DNA of 52,060 bases from Candidatus Zixiibacteriota bacterium (lineage in GTDB: Bacteria; Zixibacteria; MSB-5A5; GN15; FEB-12): positions 1 to 52,060 of the forward strand of contig JBFMDV010000038.1 in the NCBI GenBank assembly GCA_040753875.1, in the 5' to 3' direction. The notes below the pieces were generated by a model. It saw only the letters and a program-made list of their open reading frames with translations, ran no database searches and had not been told where the DNA came from. This document shows, piece after piece, positions 50,389 to 52,060 of this stretch. Position numbers and translations under genes: made by a program. Position 1 is the stretch's first letter; each line of letters opens with the position of its first letter.

Positions 50389-50409
50389 CACTGACAGAAA
50401 CTGTCAGTG
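50389..50409. promoter_or_regulatory. Dyad CACTGACAG-N3-CTGTCAGTG, copy 1
   Basis: Perfect 9-bp inverted repeat with 3-nt centre AAA. A near-identical dyad lies 86 bp downstream (50475-50495). Together they suggest binding sites for a dimeric regulator of the downstream gene. Confidence 0.6.
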
Positions 50410-50474
50410 AACCCTATATTCTGGTTGTTGCAGAATAAATTGCGGCGAAAGAGACGGCGTCGACAATCTCTTCG

Positions 50475-50495
50475 CACTGACAGATTCTGTCAGTA
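50475..50495. promoter_or_regulatory. Dyad CACTGACAG-N3-CTGTCAGTA, copy 2
   Basis: 8-bp perfect arms (ACTGACAG/CTGTCAGT) with centre ATT, matching the dyad at 50389-50409. A further half-site ACTGACA follows at 50496-50502. It lies about 75 nt before the -35 box at 50569. Confidence 0.6.
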
Positions 50496-50568
50496 ACTGA
50501 CAACTCCTGCCTGCAAGCCTGATCAGCGGCAAAAGTGTTGCATGGACAACAAAATCTCACTTTTCTTC

Positions 50569-50600
50569 TTGACACGCGGGGGGGGGGTATTCGTTATAAT
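50569..50600 (+). promoter_or_regulatory. Promoter with a G10 tract in the spacer
   Basis: TTGACA (50569-50574) and TATAAT (50595-50600) are both perfect consensus, separated by 20 nt that include ten consecutive G (50578-50587). The optimum spacing is 17 nt, so loss of two to three G would restore it. This is the layout of known phase-variable promoters. Confidence 0.72.
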
Positions 50601-50635
50601 TGAAACAAGACGAGGGAAGCACCTCGGGAGGTTTA

Positions 50636-51688
50636 ATGGACATGAGAGTGAAAGAACTGAGCGCGGTGTGTGTTCTGCTGTGTAGTGCATTCGGGCTATT
50701 CCTGTCGATGTGCACCGACCACGGGACTGATCCAAAACCAGAGGGGCCGAAGGACTATGCGGTGTTCTTTGGTGACTATACTGTACCGCCATATGAGCTT
50801 TACCGGTATCACGTCGTTTCTGGTAAGCTGGATTCGACCACTAGTCAGCCACAGTCGCTGATTTCGCCGACTGCAGTTTCTGCAGATGGAAAGCGCCTTT
50901 ACTGGTATGACGGAACAGTGATGGATGCTGAGACATTCGATGTATTGACACCATTGCCACATCGTGGTTATGTGGCTCCATCCCCGGACAACCAGCTACT
51001 CGCCGTGTGTGACACTGACCTTTTCATCCTCCGCACTTCGGATTTCTCGGTGGTCTATCATGACACGGATGCTGTCGCGAGCGGAACCTTCAGCGGCAAC
51101 AGCAAGAGATTCTATGGCAAGAAGGCCGCAGTAGGTGATTGCTACCCTATGTACAAGCTCGATCTGGAACAAGCGAATCAAGTGACCTACTCGTGCATTA
51201 AGGGTGGAATGGGTCTCGAACCATTGGTTATTTCGCCGGACGAGACTAAGCTGTATTTGTATCGCAAGTATGCCACGTTCCTTTGTTCCTTTGACGTCTA
51301 CGATTTGACTCTGGATTCGACTACGTTTAGTGAGCCATTGATTCCGGGCGGCGGAACGCTGGCGCAAACACCGGACGGCAAAGATGTGTATTTCACAAAC
51401 CCCGGTGATCTCATCTCGGGTCCCCCGCCCCCATACTCGCTGGCGGTCTATCATGTGGAGACAATGAAGATCGATACCGTCATGGACTGGGGTTTGGTGT
51501 GCTGGTCAGACAGCAGCCAGTTCTTGGGGTACAAACACATCGTTATCACGGCCGATGGCCGATGGCTTATGGGCACTACCATGGCTGACGGGACCATTAT
51601 TCGCAGAAATCTGCAGGACAGTGGGACAACAACGCGATGTGTGTTCGGGGCATGGCTCAAGTTCCCCAGGACTCAGAACGGACTGTAA
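50636..51688 (+). CDS. Secreted/lipoprotein-like beta-propeller protein of unknown function
   Basis: 350-aa exported protein. GGAGG (50627-50631) precedes ATG 50636; ATG 50642 is a second possible start. The N-terminal hydrophobic segment ends in 'FLSMC' (~residue 28), a non-ideal lipobox, so lipoprotein status is likely but unproven. The rest contains five to six WD/YVTN-like blades: 'VSADGKRLYWYDG', 'PSPDNQLLAVCDTDLFILRT', 'ISPDETKLYLYRK', 'QTPDGKDVYFTN' and 'ITADGRWLMGT'. Such propellers usually bind partners or act as surface scaffolds. Expression may be switched by the G10 promoter. A truncated protease paralogue follows after 19 nt. Confidence 0.8.
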   Translation: MDMRVKELSAVCVLLCSAFGLFLSMCTDHGTDPKPEGPKDYAVFFGDYTVPPYELYRYHVVSGKLDSTTSQPQSLISPTAVSADGKRLYWYDGTVMDAETFDVLTPLPHRGYVAPSPDNQLLAVCDTDLFILRTSDFSVVYHDTDAVASGTFSGNSKRFYGKKAAVGDCYPMYKLDLEQANQVTYSCIKGGMGLEPLVISPDETKLYLYRKYATFLCSFDVYDLTLDSTTFSEPLIPGGGTLAQTPDGKDVYFTNPGDLISGPPPPYSLAVYHVETMKIDTVMDWGLVCWSDSSQFLGYKHIVITADGRWLMGTTMADGTIIRRNLQDSGTTTRCVFGAWLKFPRTQNGL

Positions 51689-51707: not shown

Positions 51708-51923
51708 ATGAAGAAGCATGGCGAGATCGTTACAATGGTCGCAGTTCTGATCATCTGTATGGTCGGTTCACTGCATGCACAATTCTATTACGGCAAGTAT
51801 GGGCCAGTGTCCATTACGGAGGACTCCAATCGGATTATCCTCAAATTTGAGATCACCGCCGGACAGGATAACCGCACGGAACTCTTGGCACAGTTAGCAG
51901 GAGTGCTGCAACTAGTGCTATAG
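51708..51923 (+). pseudogene. Truncated S8 protease paralogue
   Basis: 71-codon frame with a good GGAGGA site (51697-51702) before ATG 51708. Its N terminus, including a signal peptide and 'AQFYYGKYGPVSI', matches the first ~67 residues of the protease at 19-1824 ('AQFYHGTDGMVPL'), then ends within a few codons after the point equivalent to Gln67. The last codons, 'LVL', have no counterpart. The break falls at a TA dinucleotide (51913-51914), as expected for IS630-type insertion, and a transposase-like gene begins 61 nt farther. So the catalytic part has been cut off here; it may continue beyond the element outside the window. Confidence 0.75.
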
Positions 51924-52060
51924 CAACTATTAGTTGCCAATAATATTTAACAAGTGCATATTGATTCCTCAAGGAGGAATTGATATGGCACGTCCGGTGC
52001 GGATTAGATTGCGTCGGCTGCAGAAGGCAGAGCGACGGTTGTTACAGGGTAAATTGAGGG
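51913..52060 (+). mobile_element. Left end of a probable IS630-like insertion element (partial)
   Basis: Starts at the point where homology with the S8 protease stops. It begins at a TA, contains a perfect hairpin GCAACTA-T-TAGTTGC (51923-51937) near its end, and carries the transposase-like start at 51985. The right end lies outside the window. Confidence 0.5.
51985..52060 (+). CDS. Transposase-like protein, N-terminal fragment (runs off window)
   Basis: Only the first 25 residues are present, beginning 'MARPVRIRLRRLQKAERR'. A very good AAGGAGGAA at 51971-51979 precedes ATG 51985. The Met-Ala-Arg-Pro start with a basic, helix-forming segment resembles the N-terminal DNA-binding region of IS630-family transposases and related helix-turn-helix proteins. 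The position, right after the break in the protease paralogue, supports an insertion element. The family assignment rests on 25 residues and is tentative. Confidence 0.5.
   Translation, partial: MARPVRIRLRRLQKAERRLLQGKLR

Follow-up and report, generated by a model that had tools for sequence, protein, structure and literature searches.

A guanine tract in a promoter spacer as a candidate slippage-driven control of exported proteins in Zixibacteria

The promoter of a predicted exported beta-propeller gene in a Zixibacteria genome carries ten consecutive G's between perfect -35 and -10 hexamers, and G/C tracts placed in the same way recur before paralogous genes in that genome and across the phylum. 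We consider it probable that such tracts control transcription through slippage-driven changes in spacer length, working like the promoters of meningococcal porA and opc or of PPA1880 of P. acnes.

The promoter lies near the end of the analysed stretch of 52,060 nt (the window, on contig C38 of the source genome), and all of its parts in the window are on the plus strand. The -35 element TTGACA (50569..50574) and the -10 element TATAAT (50595..50600) are separated by a 20-nt spacer, CGC + G10 + TATTCGT, half of which consists of the G's of the tract (50578..50587). This arrangement, two consensus hexamers 20 nt apart with ten G's filling the spacer, had been described in an earlier sequence-only reading and was confirmed by inspection of the letters; its arithmetic, that the loss of three G's would give a spacing of 17 nt, is also correct. 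The pattern TTGACA-N(14-21)-TATAAT matched once in the window and never in 100 shuffles. The G10 by itself is unremarkable, since 0.14 such tracts are expected by chance in the window; what is remarkable is its placement within a perfect -35/-10 pair. The uninterrupted homopolymer of at least about eight bases between -35 and -10 that marks promoters of the porA, opc and PPA1880 type is present here as G10. Downstream of the -10 element, a leader hairpin, CGAGG-gaagca-CCTCG (50611..50626), directly precedes the ribosome-binding site GGGAGG (50626..50631). The fold of the hairpin is not exceptional (z -1.4), and an Rfam search gave no convincing match.

The downstream gene (50642..51688) has a second in-frame ATG at 50636; ATG 50642 is probably the start, since the paralog on contig C13 has AGT in place of ATG 50636. 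The protein family has a hydrophobic N-terminus, after which comes a Cys shared by at least 90% of the 18 homologs aligned. Profile searches hit solved propellers, among them a surface-layer protein (1l0q, E 1e-19), and PD40 was matched in 9 of 18 family members. The predicted structure has an N-terminal helix followed by successive beta strands (pLDDT 78). Taken together, the hydrophobic N-terminus with its Cys, the propeller profiles and the predicted fold support the exported beta-propeller that had been proposed as the product, and so place a putative surface or exported protein behind the tract. It is probably a lipoprotein, although the LSMC of the window protein itself is an atypical lipobox. 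The propeller family is present in 28 of the 54 genomes of the taxonomic family. Further downstream (51709-52060), the next gene is a short ORF of exported type that seems truncated; near position 51985, at the end of the contig, starts a different small ORF (MARPVRIRLRRLQKAERR...), possibly a mobile element.

The genus is represented by the source genome alone. A protein encoded in the window has a relative of 66% identity in a MAG named Candidatus Zixiibacteriota, in line with the assignment to Zixibacteria. Comparisons within the source genome used pattern searches and retrieved stretches of sequence; a scan of the genome contigs with the window protein as query gave no match. The promoter and leader module (50542..50647) is kept before paralogous genes on contigs C13, C12 and C28, and conservation with the paralogs reaches upstream only as far as the G-tract promoter (about 50542). 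In all four copies the -35 element is unchanged, the -10 element reads TATACT, TATATT and TATATT in the paralogs, and the hairpin and ribosome-binding site are kept. The tract itself differs. TTGACACGC-G10 was found identically a second time at C13:93607, before a paralog truncated by the end of its contig; the C12 copy has G5 and a spacer of 15 nt, and the C28 copy has an interrupted tract, GGGGAGTGGG, and a spacer of 20 nt. Between TTGACA and the start codon the C38, C13 and C12 copies are near-identical, their sole gap there corresponding to the five missing G's. A further paralog, on C32, is without the module. Beyond the module, a palindrome, ACTGACAGnnnCTGTCAGT, occurs in two perfect copies in the window (50390-50408 and 50476-50494; 0.02 expected even allowing two mismatches), and also upstream of the C12 and C32 paralogs and twice on C10. 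It is possibly the operator of a regulator.

A census of the source genome gave 41 G tracts of at least 8 bases. Six reached at least 10, compared with about 1.6 expected by extrapolating the G8/G9 ratio, and three of these six, on C38, C13 and C19 (the last read on the opposite strand, as a run of C), sit just downstream of TTGACA in a promoter-like context. A fourth, on C18, has a weaker -35 and is followed, about 175 bp downstream, by a gene for a lipoprotein. A run of 26 G's (L090, G000:C26:123501-123526), which adjoins a C8 run and a gap of N's, is possibly an assembly artefact.

Tract length also varied among relatives; all tract lengths are taken from assemblies and may be off by one base. 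In G003, which belongs to another genus, four paralogs of the same beta-propeller family carry TTGACAACTC(A/C)TTGA followed by G9, G9, G10 or G11, and similar promoters with G12 and G9AGGG precede similar genes in G028 and G042, respectively. In G009 two near-identical promoters both have G9, with spacers of 16 and 17 nt. Near-identical copies differ in the source genome (G10, G10 and G5) and in G003, and as these are paralogs, not strains, the differences indicate change over evolutionary time and not switching. The contigs of L117 (G042:C87) and L171 (G073:C82) stop at or inside a G9 and a C16 tract linked to TTGACA, which would be expected if assembly were interrupted by heterogeneous tract lengths or by difficulties in sequencing homopolymers.

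At the level of the order, TTGACA-N(0-13)-G9 matched 18 distinct tracts in 9 genomes, and the reversed pattern none. In the phylum there were 28 distinct tracts in 18 of 132 genomes, a count that requires an exact TTGACA and so misses weaker -35 boxes, against at most 4 for the reversed pattern and only 6 when the tract was placed upstream of TTGACA. For C9 tracts the count was 6, against 1. Sign tests gave 2e-5 and 2e-4, and p was about 0.004 when paralogs were collapsed to about 18 cases. Moreover, a strong -10-like hexamer stood at 15-21 nt in 21 of the 34 G/C tracts for which the downstream sequence was long enough, compared with a mean of 3.1 in shuffled sequence and 2.0 at random positions; the 34 are not fully independent, since some belong to paralogs and two were counted on both strands. 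The frequency of these hexamers peaks at spacers of 19-20 nt, and the tract lengths range from 5 to 15. The controls for orientation and position gave far fewer hits, and G/C tracts located specifically between -35 and -10 recur phylum-wide.

When the ORFs downstream of these tracts were inspected and their hydrophobicity scored crudely, the majority of the products had an N-terminal hydrophobic segment. They include proteins with lectin-like/dockerin and Ig-like domains as well as large exported proteins, and in our reading some appear to be thioredoxin-like membrane proteins, one of which was scanned and gave no Pfam match. L155 and L169 are exceptions that look cytoplasmic. The large exported protein of about 890 aa beside the C19 tract (L083:1-1428, G000:C19) gave no Pfam match over the 476 aa scanned, and its relatives occur in all 132 phylum genomes, often in many copies each. 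Only 2 of 30 fetched members of this family have a G/C tract of at least 9 just upstream, so the tracts are not tied to one gene family.

A single G/C tract between divergent genes was seen at L183 and L185 (G130), L083 (G000:C19) and L194 (G034:C127); the G037 relative of the G034 locus has no such tract upstream. At the C19 locus of the source genome a related gene pair surrounds a 13-base tract, and in G130 two tracts (L183, L185) each lie between a TTGACA and a TGTCAA, and the genes to the left and right are homologous. One TTGACA-tract-TGTCAA could thus serve two promoters. In Haemophilus influenzae, the divergent fimbrial promoters of hifA and hifB likewise share one repeat, although there it is a TA dinucleotide repeat before fimbrial genes, and the comparison concerns the G130 loci rather than the window locus.

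Sigma-70 promoters are strongly affected by spacer length, and long G/C runs slip during replication. In the mechanism we propose, the G10 tract would be a hypermutable spacer in a sigma-70-type promoter, where slipped-strand mispairing at replication would gain or lose G's, shift the distance between -35 and -10, and so change the strength of transcription of the beta-propeller gene. By analogy, the assembled G10 allele (20 nt) may be weak or OFF and G7-G9 alleles (17-19 nt) stronger, and the same device may operate at many Zixibacteria promoters of exported proteins. Three elements of this model are inferences: that slippage causes the changes, that tract length acts on expression, and that the changes can revert within a population.

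The nearest match is the promoter of PPA1880 in Cutibacterium (Propionibacterium) acnes, in which 11, 13 and 15 G's give spacers of 18, 20 and 23 nt and only the strain with 18 nt secretes the protein (PMC3224659). There, as here, a G tract lies in the -35/-10 spacer before a gene for a secreted protein; however, organism and protein are unrelated, and the length contrast is between strains there and between paralogs here. In Neisseria meningitidis, a change from 11 C to 12 C raises the expression of opc (PMC3447861), and a work whose title concerns porA spacing is cited in PMC5084427. Both have a G or C homopolymer, whose length sets expression, in the promoter of an outer-membrane protein gene. 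They differ from the present case in that they belong to a pathogen in which switching was demonstrated, whereas it is a proposal for the Zixibacteria promoters, and there is no sequence relationship.

Slippage-driven control of spacer length is favoured by paralog gaps located mainly in the tract, the controls on G/C tracts, the -10 peak, the mostly exported products and the published precedent. Against it counts that the spacer mode is 19-20 nt and not 17, a bias that needs explaining if all assembled alleles are weak. That mode could instead be a working optimum for G-rich spacers if the tract were an evolutionary tuning knob, which sets promoter strength via spacer length or the geometry of G-rich DNA and changes slowly, with no ON/OFF mixture within a population. 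The variation in P. acnes, where tract length follows clades, suggests such slow accumulation (PMC4746626). However, the spread of lengths from 5 to 15, and differences of one to five bases between recent paralogs with near-identical flanks, make this explanation rather unlikely.

We hold the other explanations to be much less credible. The perfect boxes at 20 nt, with 19-20 nt as the common spacing, would suit a MerR-type promoter whose activator twists a long spacer, but inspection of CGC-G10-TATTCGT revealed no dyad or inverted repeat that could be an operator, and the spacing is not fixed at 19-20 nt, being 15 nt in the C12 copy and varying widely elsewhere. This very improbable candidate was rejected on both grounds. 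A neutral homopolymer or an assembly artefact at an ordinary promoter might be supposed, as G10 alone is not rare and homopolymers are error-prone; the same placement in independent genomes and genera, the far lower orientation and position controls, and the agreement of source-genome copies on G10 at two loci leave it hardly any weight. It is similarly doubtful in the extreme that an upstream promoter, CTGACA-18-TATATT (50391-50420), mainly transcribes the gene and that the G tract is irrelevant. It is the sole promoter-like site with a 16-18-nt spacer in the scanned stretch and overlaps the palindrome, but 1.8 such sites are expected there by chance, and it lies outside the part conserved among paralogs.

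Slippage-driven control of spacer length is a known mechanism; the novelty lies in the lineage, the scale and the gene family rather than in the principle. A literature search on phase variation in Zixibacteria or candidate phyla, incomplete in its coverage, found nothing relevant, so the lineage is only apparently unreported. The recurrence of tracts before genes for exported proteins suggests that Zixibacteria may switch or tune surface proteins by the gain and loss of single bases, a strategy known from certain host-associated bacteria. Whether the lineage as a whole possesses contingency promoters, in which G/C spacer tracts would stochastically switch exported proteins and at some loci one tract would act on two divergent genes, we judge to be evenly balanced. 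Most known cases of phase-variable promoter spacers come from host-associated bacteria, where they are usually explained by immune escape. A phylum-wide set in environmental bacteria, if true, would point to other drivers, e.g., phage or grazer pressure on surface proteins, and the tracts single out possible surface proteins in a phylum of which few genes have been characterised.
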